Below are positions 1 to 36,617 of a stretch of 64,000 bases of DNA, one piece after another. Position 1 is the stretch's first letter, and each line of letters begins with the position of its first letter. Under the pieces are notes generated by a model that searched no databases, was not told where the DNA came from, and was given only the letters and a program-made list of their open reading frames with translations. Position numbers and translations under genes: made by a program. The stretch comes from Sulfuriferula plumbiphila (GTDB lineage: Bacteria; Pseudomonadota; Gammaproteobacteria; Burkholderiales; Sulfuriferulaceae): assembly GCF_009938015.1 (NCBI RefSeq), contig NZ_AP021884.1, positions 1,537,501-1,601,500 of the forward strand. Reading direction: 5' to 3'.

Positions 1-83
1 AAATCGCGCTGCATGTCGATCACCAGCAAGGCGGTACGGGCGGGGTTGATATTAACAAGCGTCGGTGTGGATGGGCTATTCAC
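1..83 (-). CDS. Cysteine hydrolase (isochorismatase-like), N-terminal part, cut by window edge
   Basis: Only the first 27 codons are visible. A GTG at 83-81 follows AGGA at good spacing, and the peptide runs into TALLVIDMQRD, the signature N-terminus of the isochorismatase-like cysteine hydrolases, whose first catalytic residue is that Asp. The family contains N-carbamoylsarcosine amidase, biuret hydrolase, ureidoacrylate hydrolase and similar C-N amidohydrolases. It starts 10 bases after the creatininase stop on the same strand, so it is very probably the next gene of the riboswitch-controlled operon. An amidohydrolase here would suit breakdown of a guanidino or ureido compound. The substrate cannot be read from this fragment. 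Confidence 0.72.
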   Translation of the reverse strand, partial: MNSPSTPTLVNINPARTALLVIDMQRD

Positions 84-93
84 ATTCAGTTCC

Positions 94-861
94 TCAGGCG
101 AACTCGGCGCGCACTGCATCAGCGATGCGCTGTGCGACTTCCCCGGCCATTTGGCGTCCCTTCTCCGCATCCGCTCCCCGCGCCGAGGACAGTACACCCG
201 AAGCAGGCACCCAGGCGGGGTTGAGCGGATGGATTTCATAAGGCGGAAAGTCTGCCGGGCCATTGTCCGGAATCAGGTCCAGGCGCACCAAGTCAGGGTG
301 GTAGTGCAGCATGATGGAAGTTTCAATGACCGCAGCATGTTCCAGCGCGAAACCCGGAAAACCTGCAGGAAATACTGCGGCGAGTGTGGCCTCGGTCATG
401 AAATCCCAGTATTCCAGCCGCATCACGCGAAGCGGATGATTCGGGCCGAGTTCACGCAGCGCCAGGTCAATGCCCTCGATCAGGAACCACTGGTTTTCGT
501 AATGGCCGTTGAGCACTACCAGTTTCTTCACGCCGTGGCGCGCGAATTCGCGCACGGCATCGCGTGCCTGGCTGATCAGCGTGTGCGCGTCCAGACTGGT
601 TGTGCCGCAGAAATGCTGGCCGCCGCCGCATTTGGGCTGGGATTTGTAGCCGTAGCTCAACGCGGGTGCCACGATGCCATCCACTCGACTGGCGGCGCTG
701 GCGGCCACCGCCGACGCCAGCAGCGCATCGGTACCGAGCGGTAAGTGCGGCCCATGCTGCTCCAGCGCGCCGCAGGGCAGGAATAGCGCCGGGTTGTCAC
801 GGATGATCTTGTCCCGGTAGACGCTCCAACTCATCTGTTCCATCATCACTGTGCCCATCAT
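94..861 (-). CDS. Creatininase-family amidohydrolase
   Basis: A 255-residue protein of the creatininase family, metal-dependent cyclic amide or formamide hydrolases. The family's metal-binding signatures are visible: GALEQHGPHLPLGTD near residues 31-45 (Glu, His, Asp ligands), a NGHYEN motif near residue 120 and a downstream EHAAVIETS segment with the Glu. Family members include creatinine amidohydrolase, MftE and the formamidopyrimidine hydrolase ArfB. The start at 861 or 858 sits just behind GGAGA. It lies 17 bases after the EamA gene in the guanidine-riboswitch operon and precedes a cysteine hydrolase. Creatinine and creatine are guanidino compounds, so context favours an amidohydrolase acting on a cyclic guanidino intermediate. 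The exact substrate is inference. Confidence 0.85.
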   Translation of the reverse strand: MMGTVMMEQMSWSVYRDKIIRDNPALFLPCGALEQHGPHLPLGTDALLASAVAASAASRVDGIVAPALSYGYKSQPKCGGGQHFCGTTSLDAHTLISQARDAVREFARHGVKKLVVLNGHYENQWFLIEGIDLALRELGPNHPLRVMRLEYWDFMTEATLAAVFPAGFPGFALEHAAVIETSIMLHYHPDLVRLDLIPDNGPADFPPYEIHPLNPAWVPASGVLSSARGADAEKGRQMAGEVAQRIADAVRAEFA

Positions 862-877
862 TTTCTCCGGTATAAAA

Positions 878-1747
878 CTATTGACTGCGTGCCTCGATCA
901 GCGCGGCAGAAGCGATCAGGGCACCTCCCAGCCATTCGTGTTGGGAGATTGCCTCGCCGCCAATCAGGACCGCCGACACCAAGGCCGCAATGAGTTCGAA
1001 AATCAGCAGAATGGAAGCCTTGCCCGCCTCCATGTGGGTGACGCCGTATTGTATGGCGAGCGTGGCGAGTAGCAGCCAGGTAAACGCGAACACAAGTATC
1101 AGCCCCCATGTCCCTCCCGCGAGGCTGGGAAAACGGGCACCCTGCAATAGCGCGACGCTGCTCGCCAAAATCGCACAGCCCAGAAAAACCACAAACACCT
1201 TGCTGGTCATTGGAATGCGTTGAGCAGCACGGGTGGTGACGTTGTTGAGAGCAAAGGTGAGTCCGGCAGAAAGCGCCAGCACATCCACCAGATCGAGCGG
1301 GGTGCTAAATGCAGAGACGCCGCCCAGCAGTACAAAAGCGCCCGCCATGGACAAGCCTACGGCGAACCAGCGTTTCGGCGTAATGTGCTCGCGCAGAAAA
1401 ATGCGTCCGCCGAGTACGCCCCACACTGGGGCCAGATAAAACAGCAGCATGACCCGGACGACGTTACCGCTGATCAAGGCGGTAACAAAAGCGATATTCG
1501 ACCATCCGCCCAGCAGCGCTATCAGAACAAGCAAGCCAGTCTGGCTGCGCCAGCGCTGCCGTTGCAGCCATAGGGTGGGCAATGCGAATATCCCCACCAC
1601 ACCATAGCTGGCGACGACCATCAAGGCGCCGCTGAGTCCATGGGCGCCAAAATACTTGAGCGGCCACCAGGATATGCCCCATAGCACTGCTCCGAACAGC
1701 AGTATGCTGACCGTCATGGGCTGCGACCGTATCGACTGGGTAGGCAT
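878..1747 (-). CDS. EamA/DMT-family transporter
   Basis: A 289-residue integral membrane protein of the drug/metabolite transporter superfamily with about ten hydrophobic segments, arranged as two EamA halves (roughly residues 12-140 and 150-285). An internal start at residue 11 (MTVSILL) is also possible, because the first helix begins directly after it. It sits between the second SDR gene and the creatininase gene with gaps of about 15 bases, so it is co-transcribed. DMT proteins move small organic metabolites. In a guanidine-riboswitch operon it could export guanidine or a pathway by-product, as the small SMR guanidine exporters do elsewhere. It belongs to the ten-helix EamA class, not the four-helix SMR class. 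Confidence 0.85.
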   Translation of the reverse strand: MPTQSIRSQPMTVSILLFGAVLWGISWWPLKYFGAHGLSGALMVVASYGVVGIFALPTLWLQRQRWRSQTGLLVLIALLGGWSNIAFVTALISGNVVRVMLLFYLAPVWGVLGGRIFLREHITPKRWFAVGLSMAGAFVLLGGVSAFSTPLDLVDVLALSAGLTFALNNVTTRAAQRIPMTSKVFVVFLGCAILASSVALLQGARFPSLAGGTWGLILVFAFTWLLLATLAIQYGVTHMEAGKASILLIFELIAALVSAVLIGGEAISQHEWLGGALIASAALIEARSQ

Positions 1748-1762
1748 GCAGGTATTTACTTT

Positions 1763-2515
1763 CTAGGCCATGAAGGCGCCGCCATTGGGACCGAGGGTCT
1801 GGCCGCAGTAGAAGCTCGCATAATCGGAAGCCAGGAACACCGCGGTATGGGCGATTTCTGCGGGTTGTCCGACACGCCCCATAGGAATTGCGGTTTCCTT
1901 TTCCACCCACTCCTGACTCATCTTTTCCAGGGAAAGCATGTCGGTGTTTACCGGACCGGGGGCGATGGCATTTACCCTGATATGAGGCGCGAACTCACGT
2001 GCCAGTGAGCGAGTGAGCGTGATTACCCCAGCCTTGGCTGCGGTGTAGGGTGCGTACCCTGCGCGTCCGAGATAACCCAGTTCCGAGGCGATATTGATGA
2101 TGCAGCCTGCGTCGCGCTCGACCATCTGCGGCAGCACCGCACGACAACACAGGAAGACCGACTTCAGGTCACTGTTCAGTACGTGATCCCATTCGGCCTC
2201 GCTGGTATCGAGGAAAGGTTTTTCCAGAATGACGCCAGCATTGTTGACCAGGATGTCGATGGAACCGAACTGCACCAGGCATTGCTCCACCATGCGGTTG
2301 ACCTGGACAATCTGAGTGACATCTGCTTCGACAATGATGGCCGTACCGCCGATGGCCGTGATTTCCGCTGCAACGGCCAGTGCTTGCTGCGGGCGGTTAA
2401 GGTGATTGATGACCAGCGTCGCTCCGGCACGTCCCATTTCCACGGCGATGGCGCGGCCGATACCGCTGGCGGCGCCGGTTACCAGGACGGTTTTGCCTTG
2501 TAGAGAGATATTCAT
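1763..2515 (-). CDS. Short-chain dehydrogenase/reductase (SDR) 1
   Basis: A 250-residue classical SDR. The N-terminal nucleotide-binding motif TGAASGIG is at residues 14-21, NNAG at about 91-94, and the active-site Tyr-x3-Lys is in the YTAAK segment near residue 160 with a catalytic Ser in the IASELG stretch before it. The PGPVNTDM segment that follows is typical of FabG-like family members. All catalytic residues appear intact. It is the fourth gene of the riboswitch operon, 17 bases after another SDR. A pair of SDRs behind an oxygenase-like desaturase suggests stepwise oxidation of a hydroxylated intermediate. Cofactor and substrate are not predictable from this sequence alone. Confidence 0.87.
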   Translation of the reverse strand: MNISLQGKTVLVTGAASGIGRAIAVEMGRAGATLVINHLNRPQQALAVAAEITAIGGTAIIVEADVTQIVQVNRMVEQCLVQFGSIDILVNNAGVILEKPFLDTSEAEWDHVLNSDLKSVFLCCRAVLPQMVERDAGCIINIASELGYLGRAGYAPYTAAKAGVITLTRSLAREFAPHIRVNAIAPGPVNTDMLSLEKMSQEWVEKETAIPMGRVGQPAEIAHTAVFLASDYASFYCGQTLGPNGGAFMA

Positions 2516-2531
2516 ATCGGTATGGGATCCT

Positions 2532-3308
2532 TCAGCTCATTACTTCGCCGTTGCTCACGACGATGGTCTGGCCGGTGATGGCACGTGCGAGAGGGGAGGC
2601 CAGGAACAGGAAAGTCCCCGCGATATCTGCCGGTTCCAGCAGTTCGGGGATCGCCTGCCGCGCCAGGATTTCATTCAGCACCTCGACTTCTGACCGGCCC
2701 ATGTAATCGGATATGTTTTTCAGGGAGCGCATGGCCGTGTCAGTCCTGACCCAGCCCGGGCACACGGCGTTGACACGGATTCTTCGCTTTCCAAGCTCCC
2801 AGGCCAGTGAACGCGTCAGACCGATGACCGCGTGCTTGCTGGCGACGTACGCGGAAAAATCGGCCACCCCGGTTTTCCCCCAGATGGAGGATTGGTTGAT
2901 GATGCTGGCGTCCTGGCGGAACAGGGGGAACAGCGCTCGCGTGAGCAGATACATGCTGGTGACATTGTTGTGCAGCAACGCGGCCCAGCGCTGTGCGGCC
3001 CCGAGCGAGTCGTCATCCAGCGGTGTTGGATATTCGATACCCGCGTTGTTAATGAGCGCGTGTATCCTGATGCCGCGTTCCTGGAGGCAGTGGGCAAAGC
3101 TGGCAACTTGATCCGGCTGCGACAGGTCCACGACATGGGACGTGATGCGAGCGAGTTGGCCACTGGCTTCCTTGAGTGCAGCAGCATCCTTGTCCACCAT
3201 TTCCACACAGGCGCCATGCTCGATAAAAGCGCGTGCAACAGCCAGGCCGATGCCGCTGGCTGCACCGGTGACAACCACCGAAAGCCCGGAAAAATCAAGG
3301 CTACTCAC
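2532..3308 (-). CDS. Short-chain dehydrogenase/reductase (SDR) 2
   Basis: A 258-residue classical SDR with TGAASGIG near residue 15 and an Asp after the second beta strand (VDKD), which usually marks NAD preference. It also has NNAG near residue 89, Ser in NQSSIWG and the YVASK catalytic Tyr-Lys pair. It is clearly divergent from the SDR encoded next to it, so the two are not a recent tandem duplication. The gene starts 2 bases after the desaturase stop, which indicates tight translational coupling. Its place directly after the membrane di-iron enzyme makes oxidation of that enzyme's product a reasonable inference. Confidence 0.87.
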   Translation of the reverse strand: MSSLDFSGLSVVVTGAASGIGLAVARAFIEHGACVEMVDKDAAALKEASGQLARITSHVVDLSQPDQVASFAHCLQERGIRIHALINNAGIEYPTPLDDDSLGAAQRWAALLHNNVTSMYLLTRALFPLFRQDASIINQSSIWGKTGVADFSAYVASKHAVIGLTRSLAWELGKRRIRVNAVCPGWVRTDTAMRSLKNISDYMGRSEVEVLNEILARQAIPELLEPADIAGTFLFLASPLARAITGQTIVVSNGEVMS

Positions 3309-3309
3309 G

Positions 3310-4320
3310 TTAGACGGCAGTCAGGAAGGAAACCCCGACAGCGCCGTAAAAGGCCGCTGCCTTGTTTGTCCCTGTAGTAACTACACCATAGTCGTCGCTC
3401 AGCACGCGCTTGACCCTGTAGGTGTGGAACCCGGCCAGCAATAGGCGCATGGGGATGATTTGCTCGTAGCCCTCGCCGAATAATTCTCGATGTAGCGTGG
3501 GAAGGCGATGCCAGGGTACGGCGGGCTTCTCGTGGTGAGCATTGTGGTAGGGGAAATTCAGTAACAGCAGGTTGAGCCACGGATATTTCAGCGACACCAG
3601 GTTGGAGTAAGTATTGGACTGTTCATAGGCATGGTCGCGCAGCTTGTCGTTGGGAATCCTGTCGGCGCCGAGCATGGCGAATGCGTCATAGGTGTGCTGA
3701 TAGGCGTCGGCAAAGCGCAATACCGTGAGAAACAGCACATAGGCGATGAAATACAGCGCCAGTGCTTTGGGTGAGATTACTCCCAAAGCCAGGAATACAG
3801 CGGCGCGCAGCAGGAAGATGGCGATGATGCGCAGGCGTGCCTGCTTGCGTTCAGGAACAAGAAAAGGAATCGCCATGACGTAGACATGCATGATTATTTC
3901 CACGGCCGGGATGTAAGCCCACTCCAGGGCCAGGATCAGCTTTCTGAACCATGCAGGACTCGCATGCAGAAATTGTTTGGAGTCAAACGTGATCACATCG
4001 GCACGATCCACGTGATGACGCATGTGCTTGCGACGCAAATCCGCAAATGGCGCATAGCAACTGCCGTTGAGCCAGCTCATCAAAGTGCCCCAGTGGGTGT
4101 TTGCGATGGGCGTTTTGAAAATTGTGTTGTGGGCAAACTCATGAATGAAGTAGGCGGAATAAACCAGCACATGGGCAAGCAGTAGTGTGCCAATACCATT
4201 GACCCACCCCGAGGGGTTGAGCAACAACATGATGCCGATCGGGTAGCCCGCGAGGGTATAGGCGAGCGCCAGCACATTGGGCAATACGCCATCCGGATAG
4301 CGAAAGTGTTTACGCAACAT
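3310..4320 (-). CDS. Membrane fatty acid desaturase-like di-iron protein
   Basis: A 336-residue membrane protein of the fatty acid desaturase/hydroxylase superfamily. The three histidine boxes that hold the di-iron centre are visible: HEFAHN near residue 61, HMRHH near residue 99 and HNAHH near residue 262. Hydrophobic helices surround them. Members insert double bonds or hydroxylate C-H bonds with O2 and external electrons. The gene is second in the guanidine-riboswitch operon, between the ABC binding protein and two SDRs, with no lipid genes nearby. It may therefore hydroxylate an alkyl or N-alkyl guanidino compound and not a fatty acid. That function is inference; the family assignment is firm. 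Confidence 0.88.
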   Translation of the reverse strand: MLRKHFRYPDGVLPNVLALAYTLAGYPIGIMLLLNPSGWVNGIGTLLLAHVLVYSAYFIHEFAHNTIFKTPIANTHWGTLMSWLNGSCYAPFADLRRKHMRHHVDRADVITFDSKQFLHASPAWFRKLILALEWAYIPAVEIIMHVYVMAIPFLVPERKQARLRIIAIFLLRAAVFLALGVISPKALALYFIAYVLFLTVLRFADAYQHTYDAFAMLGADRIPNDKLRDHAYEQSNTYSNLVSLKYPWLNLLLLNFPYHNAHHEKPAVPWHRLPTLHRELFGEGYEQIIPMRLLLAGFHTYRVKRVLSDDYGVVTTGTNKAAAFYGAVGVSFLTAV

Positions 4321-4392
4321 TTTGCGGCGTTCCTTGGGTCGGTTTTATTACGCAGTGTCAGGCTGCGGGCGTCAGACGCCCGCAGGTGGCAC

Positions 4393-5403
4393 TTATTTTT
4401 TGGTGAGGGATTTGACGAACTGATCGTCAAAGGTTTTTTCGGTCAGAGGAATGGTGCTGATCTGACCCTTGTTTTTGAGGATTTTGCTGATGATTTCCCC
4501 GCTCGCATAGAATGAAGTGGTGTCCTTGCTCTTGGAAAAATTCTTGCTCATCTCGTTCAGCGGGATGTTGTAAACCCCTTTCCATTGTTCCTTTACTTCA
4601 GCGGGCGAGACACCCATTGCTTTGCCAATGATCTGCGCCGACTCGTCTGGATGCGCTTTCATGTAGGCCAAACCATCTAGATAGCCTTGGATGATCGCTT
4701 TGATTTCTTTAGGGTGGGCCTGGATGTATTTCTGATCAAATACCAGCACGTCGGTAATCAAGCCCGGCGCATTCTTGGAAGAAAACACGACATGGAATTT
4801 TTTCCCTCCCTCCATGCCCACGATTTGCGACAGGCTGGGCTCGTAGGTAACACCGATTTCTATTCCACCGGAAACCATGGCTGCGGGCACGGATTCCGGA
4901 GTCATTGAAACGTCGTGTACGTCCTTATTGGAAAGCCCGTTTTTTTGCAGGGCGTAGGACAGCAGGAAGTCCGATGGCGACAGTGGGTTGAAACCGATCT
5001 TTTTACCCTTGAACTGGCTGACCTTGGTAATGTTCGTGGTCGCGACAATGGCGTCTCCGCCGTTGGAGTAATCGATTGGCATGACTACTTTCTGTTCCAG
5101 TCCTTTCGCCACTGAGCCGATCACCTGGTCGTAGGTCAGCATGCCACCGTCCACAGCCCCGCTTGCAATGGCGGTAGGAATCAAGGCCGGGTCACTGAAC
5201 ATCTGTAGCTTGACATTGACATCGTATTTTTTGTACAGATCCTTGCCTTCGGCCACAAAAAATGGCCCATAGCCGATCCAGACCACGGTGCCAATTTTGA
5301 TGGGAGCGGATGCCTGTGCGGCAAGCGGGTTGAACACAGCAGTAGCGACCAATGCTGCCAGGCAGAGTTGTTTGAGCGACTGAAGGGAGAATGCTAACGA
5401 CAT
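4393..5403 (-). CDS. ABC transporter substrate-binding protein, NitT/TauT (SsuA-like) type
   Basis: A 336-residue secreted binding protein. The first ~30 residues form a Sec signal peptide ending in an AxA-type site (AAQASA). The mature part begins with the IKIGTVVWIGYGPFF segment typical of the NitT/TauT/SsuA class, and an NMT1/THI5-like fold covers the rest. It is the first gene after the guanidine-I riboswitch, with AAGGAG before the ATG. No permease or ATPase gene lies in the visible operon, so they are beyond the left edge or elsewhere. Riboswitch context points to guanidine or a substituted guanidine as ligand. Family members also bind nitrate, taurine and pyrimidine precursors. Confidence 0.88.
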   Translation of the reverse strand: MSLAFSLQSLKQLCLAALVATAVFNPLAAQASAPIKIGTVVWIGYGPFFVAEGKDLYKKYDVNVKLQMFSDPALIPTAIASGAVDGGMLTYDQVIGSVAKGLEQKVVMPIDYSNGGDAIVATTNITKVSQFKGKKIGFNPLSPSDFLLSYALQKNGLSNKDVHDVSMTPESVPAAMVSGGIEIGVTYEPSLSQIVGMEGGKKFHVVFSSKNAPGLITDVLVFDQKYIQAHPKEIKAIIQGYLDGLAYMKAHPDESAQIIGKAMGVSPAEVKEQWKGVYNIPLNEMSKNFSKSKDTTSFYASGEIISKILKNKGQISTIPLTEKTFDDQFVKSLTKK

Positions 5404-5449
5404 GATGGCTCCTTGGATGGGTTTAAAAGCTACGCAACGGGAAAGCAGT

Positions 5450-5556
5450 AACGCTTCTCTCCCGGGCTTTTATCCCTCCGTGGAGCCTCCAACGAGGCCG
5501 GATCGCTCTCGGACCAGACGTCTTTAATAAATCAAAGACCGGAACCCTAGCGCCCC
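5450..5556 (-). promoter_or_regulatory. Guanidine-I riboswitch (ykkC subtype 1)
   Basis: Read on the minus strand, the leader holds all the long conserved blocks of this RNA in order: CTAGGGTTCCGG (5550-5539), CTGGTCCGAGAG (near 5517-5506), an ACGG element, and GGGATAAAAGCCCGGGAGA (5476-5458). GCGCT before the first block can pair with AGCGT after the last block to close P1. The RNA ends about 50 bases before the ATG of the ABC binding protein. A later hairpin (GGGA..AAGC/GCTTTCCC) overlaps the 3' end of the aptamer and may be the expression platform. This class turns genes on when guanidine binds. The matching blocks and spacing make other ykkC subtypes (ppGpp, PRPP) less likely. Confidence 0.92.
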
Positions 5557-6159
5557 TAACAAACAGAATCCTACGCAGTGCTATCGCAACTGCCGTCCCA
5601 TTTGTCCAGAATTGTAAGCAAGCTATATGCCTGGCTTGGATTTCACGACGCAGAGTGTAAAAAATGTCTCTGGGAAATATATCTTGGGCTAATCCCGCAT
5701 GGGTTCTGTGGAATATTTGATGATCTTAACTTAAACAAACAGGCTGATCGTTTTTCTGCACTCATTTCGTGCGGCAGGCAAAATGATGCACCATTGATGC
5801 CGGGTTGATTTGAACGAGAACAATATTATGCCGGCCATGTCGATGGCCGCCTCCTGGAAATTTTGCGGGTGGGAGACTGTCACACTCGAAACAACTAAAA
5901 TCGATGGCTTCATTCCAAATATTGGATTGCTCGTCAGCCTTTACATATTTTCACAGGGTACAGCCTACGAACCATTTCGCTACCTGGAACCGCGGACAGC
6001 GTGGCGAAAAGATTTTAGCTGCGCTGTATGATTACGCCAAAGCGATTGCGCCGGCGCGAAATCAGGGCGTCTGAATTGGGTTGGCCATTGGAGAGGATTG
6101 GTGAGGTGTTGGGTTACAGTGAAATGACTTTGAAATTTACCGGACAGTAGTGGTCTGCG
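5557..6159. other. Intergenic region without recognisable gene
   Basis: About 600 bases between the leftward riboswitch leader and the rightward helicase gene. It must hold the promoter of the riboswitch operon, but I see no convincing -35/-10 pair. Short open frames here (5578-5808, 5810-6031) have no recognisable motifs and no ribosome binding sites. Confidence 0.5.
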
Positions 6160-9132
6160 ATGAAAATTCTCGAGTACACCGGCCTCGACACCTCCCGTGT
6201 CAAGGCAGCTTACCGCAAGGTGGCGGATGCCATTGCCCGCGACGACTTCCGCGCCGCACAGGTGAAGAAGCTCGCCAATCTTGGCCACGGCAAGTTCTAC
6301 CGGGCGAAGCTCGACGACGCGGACCGGCTGCTGTTTTCGCTGGTGCGCCACGGTGATGAAGTTTGCGCGCTGATGCTGGAGGTGATCGCCAATCACGACT
6401 ACGACAAGTCGCGCTTCCTGCGCGGCGCCACCATTGACGAGGCGAAGATTCCCGACATCGATGCGGCAGAAGCCATCAAGGAAGCGCAGCCGGTGCGTTA
6501 CCTGCACCCGGAGCGCACCGCCATTCACCTGCTCGACAAGCCGATCTCCTTCGACGACACCCAGGAGGCCATCTATTGCCAGCCGCCACCGCTGATCGTG
6601 GTGGGCAGTGCCGGCAGCGGCAAGACGGCGCTGACGCTGGAGAAGCTCAAGCACGCCGAGGGAGAAGTGCTCTACGTCACGCACTCCGCCTACCTTGCCC
6701 AGAACGCCCGCGATCTCTATTACGCCAATGGCTTCGAGCATGCCGGGCAGGAGGCAGTGTTTCTTTCCTACCGCGAGTTTGTCGAATCGATTCGCGTGCC
6801 GACAGGGCGGGAAGCGAACTGGCGCGACTTCGCCGGCTGGTTCGCGCGGATGCGGCAGATGTTCAAGGAGTTCGACGGCCACCAGGCCTTCGAGGAAATC
6901 CGTGGCGTGATTGCCGCCGGCGCCGGTGGGGTTCTGTCGCGGGATGATTATCGGGTTCTGGGCGTGCGCCAGTCCATCTTTCCCGCAGGCCAGCGCGACA
7001 AGCTCTACGATCTGTTCGAGAAATACCGCATCTGGCTGTTGGAGGCAAAGCTCTATGACCTCAACCTCGTCGCCCAGGAATGGCAGGCGCTGGCTGCGCC
7101 GCGTTACGACTTCGTCGTCATCGACGAAGTGCAGGATATTACCACCGTCCAGCTTGCGCTGGTGCTGCAGACCCTGAAAAAGCCTGGCTACTTCCTGCTG
7201 TGCGGCGATTCCAATCAGATCGTCCATCCCAACTTCTTCTCCTGGGGGCAGGTGAAAAGCCTGTTCTGGCGCGATGCGCAACTGGCCGAGCGGCAGGAGC
7301 TGCGGGTGCTCACCGCCAACTTTCGCAACGGTCTGGAAGCGACCCGCGTCGCCAATCGGCTGCTCAAGATCAAGCAGCGGCGCTTCGGCTCCATCGACAG
7401 GGAGAGCAACTTTCTCGTGCAGGCGGTCGGGGGCGAAGCCGGGCAGGTGGCGCTGCTGCCGGACAAGGACGGCACCAAGCGCGAGCTCGACCAGAAGATT
7501 CGCCAGTCCACCCAGTTCGCCGTGCTGGTGATGCGCGACGAGGACAAGGTCGAGGCGAGACGCCACTTCGCCACGCCGCTATTGTTTTCGATTCACGAAG
7601 CCAAGGGCCTCGAATACGAAAACATCGTGCTTTACCGTTTCGTCTCCGACCATCGGGCAGAGTTCGCCGACATCGTCGAAGGCGTGGACAGGGCTGATCT
7701 TGCCGCCGACACGCTGGATTACCGGCGGGCGAAGGACAAAAGCGACAAGTCGCTGGAGGTCTACAAATTCTTCGTCAACGCCCTCTACGTCGCGCTGACG
7801 CGCGCCATCAAGAACCTGTATGTCATCGAGTCGGACACCGGACATCCGCTGTTTGGCCTGCTTGATCTCGCCGTCGCCGGACAGGTGAAAGTCGAGGCAA
7901 AGCAGTCCAGTGTGGAAGATTGGCAGAAGGAAGCGCGCAAGCTTGAACTGCAGGGCAAGCAGGAGCAGGCCGATGCCATCCGCCGCACCATCCTCAAGCA
8001 GACAGCGGTGCCCTGGCCGGTGTTCGACGAGACGAAGATCAGGGAGCTGCTGGAGAAGGTGTTTCGCGAACAGGCGCCGGGCGGCAAGCACAAGCAGCAT
8101 CTCTACGAATACGCCACCTGCTTTGATGAGCCGGTGCTGGCGGCGTGGCTCGTTCAGGAAGCAAAGTTCGACACGGCGAGAAGCTTCCAGCAGCAACGCG
8201 CCACGCTGGGCCGCAAGACCTACGTCCAATATTTTGCCAGCCACTTCAAGGATATCCTGCGCCAGTGCGACCAGCATGGCATCGAGCACCGCCTGCCGAT
8301 GAATCAGACGCCACTGATGACGGCAGCGGCGGCGGGCAATGTGCCGCTGGTGGAAGCGTTGCTCGCTCGCGGCGCCGACCGTGAGGCGGTTGACCACTAT
8401 GGCTGGAACGCCCTGCACTGGGCTATGCGCGAAGCCTTCCGCGATCCGAAGTTCGCGCGCGGTCCGTTCGCGGCACTCTACGATCTGGTCGCCCCGGCAA
8501 GCATCGACGTGAACACGGGTGAGCGGTTGGTGCGCATCGACCGGCATCTCTCCGAGTATTTCCTGTTCCAGACGCTGTGGGTGCTGTTCAAGTCGCGTTT
8601 CACCCACGGGCAGTGTCGGCGCTACGGCGCTTTCGAGACGCAGGCAATTCTGGATGCCTGGCCGCACCTGCCGACAAATGTGGTGCGGCCGGAGCGCAAC
8701 AAGCGCCAGCATCTTTCCAGCGTGCTCGCACGCAACGAAATCGAGCGCGACTATGCCTACAACCGGGCGCTGTTCATACGCGTTGCGCAAGGCTGGTACC
8801 AGTTCAATCCGAAACTCTCAGTACGCCGGCGGCGCGGCGAAGAAGCGCTTTGGGTGCCGGTCTACACGGCGCTCAATCTGCCGCTCATCAATGAATTTGC
8901 CTGGGATAGTACTTATGAAGAGCTCGATCTGCCGCTCCTCAACGGGCCTGTCTGGGATTTCTTCGGGCCTCGCATCGACGATTACCTGTCCATGGCAGGC
9001 CTGCCGGAGCGCACCATTCCGCTGGCCGCCGAACGCGCCATTGCACGGCATGAGGCGGCGCAACACCAGAGGCTGATGAGTCAGGAGCTCACGATAAAGC
9101 CCCGCGCCCATAAACGGCAGAAAACAACTTGA
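6160..9132 (+). CDS. RelE-like / UvrD-type SF1 helicase / ankyrin fusion protein
   Basis: A 990-residue multidomain protein. Residues 1-95 resemble a RelE/ParE-type toxin fold (KFYRAKLDDADRLLFSLV, then LEVIANHDYDKSRF). Residues 140-590 form a superfamily 1 helicase core: Walker A GSAGSGKTA near 149-157, Walker B VVIDEVQD near 316, the QXXR-like TANFRNG segment and motif V HEAKGLEYENIVL near 479. Residues about 710-765 carry two ankyrin-type repeats (TPLMTAAAAGNVPLVEALL, then NALHWAM). The C-terminal ~220 residues are unrecognised. No conserved partner is adjacent. Such toxin-helicase fusions could belong to defence, repair or plasmid-control systems. Which one is unknown. Confidence 0.8.
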   Translation: MKILEYTGLDTSRVKAAYRKVADAIARDDFRAAQVKKLANLGHGKFYRAKLDDADRLLFSLVRHGDEVCALMLEVIANHDYDKSRFLRGATIDEAKIPDIDAAEAIKEAQPVRYLHPERTAIHLLDKPISFDDTQEAIYCQPPPLIVVGSAGSGKTALTLEKLKHAEGEVLYVTHSAYLAQNARDLYYANGFEHAGQEAVFLSYREFVESIRVPTGREANWRDFAGWFARMRQMFKEFDGHQAFEEIRGVIAAGAGGVLSRDDYRVLGVRQSIFPAGQRDKLYDLFEKYRIWLLEAKLYDLNLVAQEWQALAAPRYDFVVIDEVQDITTVQLALVLQTLKKPGYFLLCGDSNQIVHPNFFSWGQVKSLFWRDAQLAERQELRVLTANFRNGLEATRVANRLLKIKQRRFGSIDRESNFLVQAVGGEAGQVALLPDKDGTKRELDQKIRQSTQFAVLVMRDEDKVEARRHFATPLLFSIHEAKGLEYENIVLYRFVSDHRAEFADIVEGVDRADLAADTLDYRRAKDKSDKSLEVYKFFVNALYVALTRAIKNLYVIESDTGHPLFGLLDLAVAGQVKVEAKQSSVEDWQKEARKLELQGKQEQADAIRRTILKQTAVPWPVFDETKIRELLEKVFREQAPGGKHKQHLYEYATCFDEPVLAAWLVQEAKFDTARSFQQQRATLGRKTYVQYFASHFKDILRQCDQHGIEHRLPMNQTPLMTAAAAGNVPLVEALLARGADREAVDHYGWNALHWAMREAFRDPKFARGPFAALYDLVAPASIDVNTGERLVRIDRHLSEYFLFQTLWVLFKSRFTHGQCRRYGAFETQAILDAWPHLPTNVVRPERNKRQHLSSVLARNEIERDYAYNRALFIRVAQGWYQFNPKLSVRRRRGEEALWVPVYTALNLPLINEFAWDSTYEELDLPLLNGPVWDFFGPRIDDYLSMAGLPERTIPLAAERAIARHEAAQHQRLMSQELTIKPRAHKRQKTT

Positions 9133-36540: not shown

Positions 36541-36617
36541 AGGCGCGTAGCTCAGCTGGTTAGAGCACCACCTTGACATGGTGGGGGTCGTTGGTTCGAG
36601 TCCAATCGCGCCTACCA
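36541..36617 (+). tRNA. tRNA-Val (anticodon GAC)
   Basis: A 77-base cloverleaf. The 7-bp acceptor stem AGGCGCG/CGCGCCT, D-arm GCTCAGCTGGTTAGAGC, anticodon stem CCACC/GGTGG with loop TTGACAT, T-arm with GGTTCGAGTCC, discriminator A and encoded CCA are all visible. Anticodon GAC reads GUC/GUU valine codons. A recombinase remnant and IS fragments follow directly, so this tRNA is a plausible island attachment site. Confidence 0.96.

Follow-up and report, generated by a model that had tools for sequence, protein, structure and literature searches.

A Guanidine-I riboswitch operon of Sulfuriferula plumbiphila that encodes desaturase-family and MgdL-family proteins, a probable guanidine-releasing module

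Guanidine riboswitches are common, and the source of guanidine is an open question, for which an operon at the left edge of a 64,000 nt stretch of the Sulfuriferula plumbiphila genome points to substituted guanidines. This stretch, the window, covers C1:1537501-1601500 of the source genome (G000), which is a single contig. A preliminary description of its sequence had called the leader a Guanidine-I riboswitch and the genes behind it a substrate-binding protein (SBP), a desaturase-like enzyme (DES), two short-chain dehydrogenases (SDR), an EamA transporter, a creatininase-family hydrolase (CRE) and a cysteine hydrolase (CYS). Using Rfam covariance scanning, the leader was assigned to the full-length Guanidine-I model with an E value of 1.4e-13 for the 64-kb window. 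In a permissive scan of positions 5390-5620 (E up to 10), the ppGpp, PRPP and other ykkC-type classes were all unmatched, and the only further matches were two weak ones on the plus strand to unrelated viral families. The leader is thus confirmed as a real Guanidine-I riboswitch, with guanidine binding and gene control predicted; a predicted stem in it overlaps the 3′ part of the aptamer, with a z-score of only -1.71. The gene calls were likewise borne out by the Pfam and TIGR profiles. The minus-strand operon runs in the order riboswitch, SBP, DES, SDR, SDR, EamA, CRE, CYS, an MBL-fold hydrolase (MBL) and an unannotated last gene (UNK), and the GTG at position 83 was our choice for the CYS start (Table 1).

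Table 1. Coordinates of the riboswitch and operon genes; positions are those of the window, or of the contig where prefixed C1.
Feature	Position	Strand	Basis
Guanidine-I riboswitch aptamer	5457..5561	-	RF00442, cmscan 84.2 bits, gathering 63, model 1-107
SBPb, NitT/SsuA-type periplasmic substrate-binding protein	4393..5403	-	PF09084 E 1.2e-24; TIGR01728 121.7 bits, under cut-off
DES, FA_desaturase-family membrane protein, putative N-alkylguanidine hydroxylase	3310..4320	-	PF00487 E 1.1e-33
SDR1, short-chain dehydrogenase	2532..3308	-	PF13561 E 3.5e-51
SDR2, short-chain dehydrogenase	1763..2515	-	PF13561 E 1.5e-63
EamA-type transporter	878..1747	-	PF00892 E 2.8e-22
CRE, creatininase-family amidohydrolase	94..861	-	TIGR04448 355.7 bits, cut-off 235
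CYS, isochorismatase-family cysteine hydrolase, first codons	1..83, on to C1:1536894	-	homology to pMET-2 enzyme
MBL, MBL-fold hydrolase, outside window	C1:1536115-1536903	-	
UNK, MgdL-family, unannotated last operon gene, outside window	C1:1535318-1536118	-	

Recovery of the genes left of position 1, as the preliminary description had proposed, gave most of the CYS gene, MBL and UNK, and beyond them a second Guanidine-I riboswitch (C1:1527229-1527336, plus strand, 87.1 bits) that precedes ABC transporter genes, a UAAP1/UAAP2 pair and a urea/guanidine carboxylase gene. This carboxylase operon is convergent with the DES operon, and the carboxylase stop codon lies 71 bp from UNK. The familiar guanidine genes, which had been described as absent, are indeed missing from the window but not from the genome, and the separate route suggested on that ground was not upheld, since these genes adjoin the operon under a guanidine riboswitch of their own. 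Because they lie next door under this second switch, the DES operon most likely supplies guanidine to the adjoining carboxylase pathway. The neighbouring operon is of the same kind as the guanidine carboxylase operons under Guanidine-I in the available portion of PMC12186494; in contrast to those, the DES operon carries no carboxylase, deiminase or allophanate hydrolase gene.

The strongest clue to the chemistry came from UNK. In the accessible text of PMC12508155, MgdL is a proven N-(hydroxymethyl)guanidine lyase, reported as specific for that compound, which partners the dioxygenase MgdH in the demethylation of methylguanidine by Vreelandella boliviensis. Pairwise alignment of UNK with V. 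boliviensis MgdL indicated near full-length homology (31% identity over 240 aa, E 8e-27); the reference gene was taken from locus L133, where each of the four published primers matches exactly in its gene-specific part. The MgdL catalytic residues D49 and R51 correspond to D43 and R45 of UNK, which are invariant in 40 aligned rows including the window genome, and MgdL shares 23 of the 29 residues invariant across these rows. An AF2 model of UNK (pLDDT 92.9, pTM 0.90) consisted mostly of strands; Foldseek returned FABP-type barrels weakly at E about 0.01 and none at E ≤ 0.001, and a sequence search of solved structures with UNK gave no usable relative. By homology, UNK is assigned to the MgdL family and is predicted to cleave N-(hydroxymethyl)guanidine, although, as the identity is only 31% and MgdL is reported to be specific, the hydroxylated compound could differ.

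The partner of this lyase appears to have been exchanged. MgdH was found at E ≤ 0.001 in none of the 12 genomes carrying DES (S. plumbiphila and 11 others), and the same search did match in G171 and G365. Reciprocally, a profile search found DES in none of the 20 genomes that have the lyase but lie outside the DES group, and the control with this profile matched 12/12 DES genomes; the 20 come largely from a single genus, and G365, G171 and G084 among them were known to lack DES from an earlier search of 369 genomes. MgdL homologues adjoin an MgdH homologue in all 19 loci (L125 and 18 from a single genus); in L125 and L127, MgdL follows a carboxylase gene that has a Guanidine-II switch, as in the published layout. 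The MgdH and MgdL genes of genome G399 (L146/L147) matched in pieces and were left unmended. The distributions of DES and MgdH are therefore complementary, and DES stands in MgdH's place. The linkage has gaps: genome G084 (L124) has a UNK homologue next to guanidine genes but lacks both DES and MgdH, DES and UNK are on separate contigs in G213, and DES loci L026-L030, L032-L034, L055, L074 and L075 lack UNK, no guanidine genes being recognised near DES in L032 or L034. Per-genome UNK counts are perhaps too low, with at most seven candidates scored in each. In G365 (L128), a second, more distant dioxygenase lies beside a UNK-like gene, and similar loci are L148-L151.

DES itself passes the PF00487 profile and carries three histidine boxes (HEFAH, HMRHH and HNAHH), the histidines of which are invariant in 38 aligned rows. 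Its AF2 model was of high confidence (pLDDT 91.9, pTM 0.91), with no Foldseek match at E ≤ 0.001 (best, 8xks_K, a chloroplast FtsHi motor complex subunit, E 2.5e-3, TM 0.60) and no usable relative among solved structures searched by sequence; among the operon genes, none was recognised as an electron donor for DES. Characterised members of this family act mostly on lipids, and guanidine is a chaotrope, so that DES might desaturate or hydroxylate lipids, adapting membranes to guanidine stress, within a mix of detoxification genes, with the EamA transporter as a possible exporter. We consider this improbable, because DES is linked to MgdL-family and guanylurea-hydrolase-like genes, complements MgdH in distribution, and directly follows Guanidine-II switches in loci L027 and L033. 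DES would instead be an N-alkylguanidine hydroxylase.

Next, the recurrence of the gene set was surveyed. The search of 369 genomes gave 23 with a DES match at E ≤ 0.001, of which 12 were kept at E ≤ 1e-27, one of these (G048) being a partial gene at a contig end. The best 80 of 162 DES relatives came from numerous species of proteobacteria, among them sulfur oxidisers, pseudomonads and Burkholderiales; a plasmid-borne origin was rejected, DES matching five plasmid records with 36.6% identity at best. From 91 DES loci (L025-L115), 90 were counted after dropping L035 (partial DES), and 55 with DES at ≥50%, >2.5 kb upstream and >6.5 kb downstream formed a full-context set, in which same-strand genes from -3.5 to +8.5 kb were counted; these loci come from related species and are not independent. 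SBP was found in 54, UNK in 51, CRE in 47, CYS in 46, SDR2 in 44, SDR1 and EamA in 40 each and MBL in 39 of the 55, and a same-strand permease and ATPase followed in 33 and 35, respectively. A motif script placed Guanidine-I ahead of DES at 70 of the 73 loci, and Rfam, in scans covering 44 loci besides the window, confirmed it at 27/27 DES loci given, which were picked for short length; in L027 and L033, a Guanidine-II switch lies directly before DES. Thus, the set from riboswitch to UNK recurs, with gaps, across proteobacteria, and the desaturase, creatininase and SDR combination proposed for survey in the preliminary description proved to recur under Guanidine-I.

A second homology concerns CYS, which is 60.9% identical to the guanylurea hydrolase of pMET-2. 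We infer, from the plasmid, the family and a neighbouring deaminase, that this gene is BB_00025, a proven enzyme that, in the part of its source available, acts on guanylurea and little on biuret. CYS is thus a close homologue of guanylurea hydrolase, with guanylurea activity predicted; it also resembles biuret hydrolase, with a score under the cut-off of that model. The pMET-2 gene has LysR, SBP, nucleoside deaminase, permease and ATPase genes as neighbours, and no desaturase is annotated in the 18.6 kb stretch, in contrast to the DES operon. Residues D23, K129 and C162 (trimmed CYS numbering), which we take to be the catalytic positions, are invariant in 57 rows, a set that takes in the plasmid protein and counts the window protein twice; the thresholds for the family sets were 40% identity and 80% coverage.

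Collectively, the operon is probably a guanidine-releasing module in which DES and the lyase dealkylate methylguanidine or a related compound. Directly supported are the riboswitch match, the gene content, the UNK and CYS homologies, the conserved linkage and the complementary distribution of DES and MgdH. Substituted guanidines would enter through the NitT-type binding protein, the permease and ATPase for which are probably borrowed here from the neighbouring operon; DES, with its di-iron-site histidine boxes, would hydroxylate the carbon attached to a guanidine nitrogen, the likeliest target being the methyl group of methylguanidine; and UNK would cleave the N-(hydroxyalkyl)guanidine to yield guanidine plus an aldehyde. 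CYS would release guanidine from guanylurea or a similar acylguanidine, and oxidation and hydrolysis of related carbinolamines or acylguanidines would probably fall to the SDR, creatininase-family and MBL proteins. Once released, guanidine would keep both riboswitches on and would then be broken down by the neighbouring carboxylase pathway. For S. plumbiphila we infer all of these activities, as well as the roles of SDR1, SDR2, CRE, MBL and EamA. The uptake and C-H oxidation of a substituted guanidine, already envisaged in the preliminary description, gained support from the MgdL-family gene left of the window. In V. boliviensis, according to the accessible text of PMC12508155, the Guanidine-II class binds methylguanidine as well as guanidine and the Guanidine-I aptamer does not bind methylguanidine; induction of the operon would therefore need free guanidine.

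Compared with the MgdH/MgdL system, as far as the available text of PMC12508155 describes it, the DES operon likewise has an MgdL-family gene encoding the catalytic Asp-x-Arg, lies under a guanidine riboswitch and is linked to an ABC importer and to genes for guanidine carboxylase. It differs in that a desaturase-family membrane protein is present and the 2OG/Fe(II) dioxygenase MgdH was not found, in the additional SDR, SDR, EamA, creatininase-family, cysteine hydrolase and MBL genes, and in standing as an operon apart, under a Guanidine-I switch of its own. The operon would be a variant of the known methylguanidine/guanidine pathway with a little-described conserved gene set. At about even chances, a membrane di-iron desaturase-family enzyme has turned into an N-dealkylase of small water-soluble guanidinium compounds, replacing MgdH before the same dedicated hemiaminal lyase in a widespread riboswitch operon through which methylguanidine and guanylurea, and possibly creatinine-type compounds, are turned into guanidine. 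Concrete predictions are thereby available both for an unannotated protein family and for proteins labelled fatty acid desaturases, and the operon is also relevant to what becomes of methylguanidine and of guanylurea, which arises from metformin breakdown. Within the accessible parts of the literature searched, no desaturase family was tied to substituted guanidines and no creatininase was matched with a guanidine riboswitch, although riboswitch-survey supplements may list such genes.

SDR1, SDR2, CRE and MBL are unexplained by the methylguanidine scheme, and two further routes were weighed. CRE might open creatinine itself or a derivative of it that DES and the SDRs have hydroxylated or oxidised, with further hydrolysis to methylguanidine or guanidine. 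Consistent with this, CRE exceeds the TIGR04448 creatininase equivalog cut-off, the presumed metal-ligand positions of the family, as placed on CRE, are kept in 60 or 61 of 61 rows and the W154 equivalent is also conserved (the window protein is counted twice among these rows, limited to 40% identity and 80% coverage); moreover, SDR and CRE co-occur in the 55 loci (both in 45, CRE alone in 2, SDR alone in 0). The creatinine route is nevertheless unlikely: W174 and D175, which we take to be pocket residues of creatininase from P. putida, the presumed source of PDB 1j2t and 1v7z, are replaced by F/Y and A in 61/61 rows, so that CRE resembles that enzyme in sequence family and metal-ligand positions but not in these residues; no creatinase partner was recognised in the operon; and 8 of the 55 loci have DES with neither CRE nor SDR.

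Alternatively, an SDR might oxidise the N-(hydroxyalkyl)guanidine made by DES to an N-acylguanidine, which CRE, CYS or MBL would hydrolyse to guanidine and an acid, UNK then being a parallel exit or repair enzyme. This is tentative, though somewhat less doubtful than creatinine opening, and it adds to the guanidine-releasing module without excluding it. Creatinine and guanylurea are both acylguanidines, which accords with it, as does the SDR and CRE co-occurrence; on the other side, the sequence of no SDR or hydrolase here gives a sign of such a substrate. The MBL and UNK pattern is compatible with partly interchangeable exits, with UNK alone in 15 of the 55 loci, MBL alone in 3 and neither in 1, but both genes are kept at most loci (36).

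The leader of the operon belongs to the Guanidine-I class, as the preliminary description had proposed: Rfam matched this class once in the window, over its full length and with 84.2 bits where the gathering threshold is 63, and a permissive scan of the leader (5390-5620) returned no competing riboswitch class. A leader stem overlapping the aptamer 3′-end is possible, its fold being weakly better than those of shuffled sequences (z -1.71; 10 of 200 shuffles as good). The genome, one contig (C1) of 3.45 Mb on which the window occupies C1:1537501-1601500, carries two Guanidine-I matches in all. The absence of familiar guanidine genes noted earlier holds within the window, but not in the genome, where a carboxylase and UAAP1/UAAP2 operon adjoins on the left under the second Guanidine-I. 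The two operons are convergent, with 71 bp from stop to stop between the last operon gene and the carboxylase. This carboxylase is named urea carboxylase by NCBIfam, and the UAAP1/UAAP2 pair we take to be the carboxyguanidine deiminase subunits CgdA/B. Past the window edge, the operon holds the remainder of CYS (isochorismatase-family cysteine hydrolase), then MBL, an MBL-fold hydrolase whose top-ranked NCBIfam hits, to the models of AHL lactonase AiiA and 4-pyridoxolactonase, both fall far under the cut-offs, and then UNK, with zero Pfam or NCBIfam matches at E <= 0.01.

Coordinates of features in the window, on the contig (C1) and in compared loci (L)
Feature	Location	Strand	Remarks
Guanidine-I aptamer	window 5561-5457 (C1:1542957-1543061)	-	operon leader
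Second Guanidine-I	C1:1527229-1527336	+	then SBP, permease, ATPase, UAAP1, UAAP2, carboxylase
Genes farther left	C1:1513509-1524778		near guanidine operons: allophanate hydrolase, second urea carboxylase; reads as also including a urea-type ABC transporter
UvrD-like helicase	window 6160-9132	+	divergent from operon
tRNA-Val (gac)	window 36541-36617	+	
MgdL-family gene	L124 8348-9463		adjoins guanidine transport genes
Second divergent dioxygenase	L128 7556-9380		also in L148-L151
PF01261 protein	L033 8586-9416		after DES
PF01261 protein	L028 8443-9285		after DES
Type III glutamine synthetase (TIGR03105)	L033 10470-11915		over cut-off
Type III glutamine synthetase (TIGR03105)	L124 13605-15756		over cut-off

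Relatives of DES, the FA_desaturase-family membrane protein of the operon, numbered 162 in GTDB species genomes; the best 80 of the 162 span 55-70% identity and come from Thiomonas, Sulfuriferula, Acidithiobacillus, Thiobacillus, Pseudomonas, Stutzerimonas, Halopseudomonas, Hydrogenophaga, Polaromonas, Paraburkholderia and other genera, and 11 further DES loci were taken from a class-wide survey. A scripted motif search of the coding strand, reaching up to 3 kb ahead of DES, found Guanidine-I in 69 of 73 loci with DES >= 50% identity and > 2.5 kb upstream; Rfam added L043, giving 70/73, and gave no match in L041, L074 and L075. Rfam also confirmed Guanidine-I upstream of DES in 27/27 additional loci, every one motif-positive beforehand. 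With DES < 50% and > 2.5 kb upstream, 0/7 loci carried the motif there. Among loci with DES below 50%, Rfam placed Guanidine-II immediately before DES in L027 and L033, Guanidine-I was present in L031 (48%, shorter upstream), and L028 and L034 lay outside the Rfam scan. Across the class survey, Guanidine-I occurred in 29/369 genomes, and these include 6 of the 12 with a clear DES match (one-sided Fisher p 9e-5, kinship of genomes uncorrected); in G213 Guanidine-I and DES are on separate contigs. Same-strand gene content was counted in 55 loci with full context (DES >= 50%, > 2.5 kb upstream, > 6.5 kb downstream): SBP (NitT-type binding protein) 54, UNK 51, CRE (creatininase-family protein) 47, CYS 46, SDR2 44, SDR1 40, EamA 40, MBL 39, ATPase 35 and permease 33. 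All eight accessory genes were present in 24, and guanidine carboxylase or UAAP genes lay nearby in 17 (stretches of at most about 21 kb).

In Vreelandella boliviensis, the 2OG/Fe(II) dioxygenase MgdH converts methylguanidine to N-(hydroxymethyl)guanidine, which is cleaved by the lyase MgdL with catalytic residues D49 and R51 (available text of PMC12508155). L133 (genome G377) is an exact match to each of the four published primers in its gene-specific portion, so this locus holds the published mgd genes or near-identical ones. Judged by sequence, UNK is an MgdL homologue: it shares 31% identity with the L133 MgdL over 240 aa (E 8e-27), D49/R51 correspond to UNK D43/R45, invariant across 40 UNK rows, and 23 of the 29 invariant UNK residues also occur in MgdL. 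A profile of 40 UNK proteins found homologues in 7/369 genomes, four with DES (co-occurrence p 2e-5), two with MgdH (G171, G365) and G084, the genome of locus L124, with neither. Within the genus of G365, the lyase was found in 18/82 genomes, and an MgdH homologue adjoins it in 18/18 (in pieces in G399) as well as in L125. In the lyase tree, 17 rows of this genus and L125 form a supported group (100/99); the division between that side and the DES-linked one has weak support (49/86), and long branches meet.

Searches for MgdH recovered no relative among DES-locus ORFs (E <= 1e-5) and none in the 12 DES genomes (E <= 0.001), the latter search matching G171 at 69% and G365 at 84%. Reciprocally, DES was found in 0/20 lyase genomes outside the DES group (18 of G365's genus, G171, G084), using a profile that matched 12/12 DES genomes and 0/2 MgdL genomes. 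This complementary distribution has the pattern of non-orthologous replacement of MgdH by DES, the 20 genomes being mostly of one genus and three of them previously known to lack DES. Against replacement stand G084, with a UNK homologue and neither oxygenase, G213, with DES and UNK on separate contigs, and L032 and L034, with zero recognised guanidine genes near DES. The three-box histidines of DES are invariant in 38 rows and its structure model is confident, in line with a functional di-iron site in the membrane. In four genomes of G365's genus, the second dioxygenase (42-44% to MgdH) adjoins a UNK-like gene and perhaps acts on another guanidine. The PF01261 xylose-isomerase-like TIM barrel of two distant loci is a possible third exit enzyme.

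CYS is 60.9% identical (family 51-64%, median 60.7%) to a pMET-2 plasmid cysteine hydrolase (CP098607), whose gene adjoins a nucleoside deaminase gene, the same neighbour as described for BB_00025, a purified guanylurea hydrolase of 11 umol/min/mg (available text of PMC9800807). CYS bears a resemblance to biuret hydrolase too, scoring 253.9 bits, under that model's cut-off of 370. CRE was above the creatininase model cut-off; however, the adjacent W174 and D175 of P. putida creatininase are replaced by F/Y and A in 61/61 rows of its family, so creatinine is not assured as the substrate. SDR and CRE genes co-occur across loci, which suggests a submodule whose chemistry is a guess. The glutamine synthetases adjoin a creatininase-family protein, NitT ABC genes and guanidine genes.

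DES would hydroxylate an N-alkylguanidine, with methylguanidine as the best guess, and UNK would release guanidine and an aldehyde; CYS may convert guanylurea or a like acylguanidine to guanidine, which would enter the neighbouring carboxylase pathway and keep the switches on. Methylguanidine is not bound by the Guanidine-I of V. boliviensis (available text of PMC12508155), so induction would come from the operon's own product or imported guanidine. The literature searched, as far as available and outside riboswitch-survey supplementary lists, yielded no account of the operon, nor of any protein in the desaturase family with alkylguanidines as substrates; in the available text of an older metagenome riboswitch survey, a desaturase is tied to a cobalamin switch, not ykkC (PMC2211319). 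Beside the operon, the UvrD-like helicase carries an ankyrin-type stretch and weakly matches GajB-type defence helicase models.
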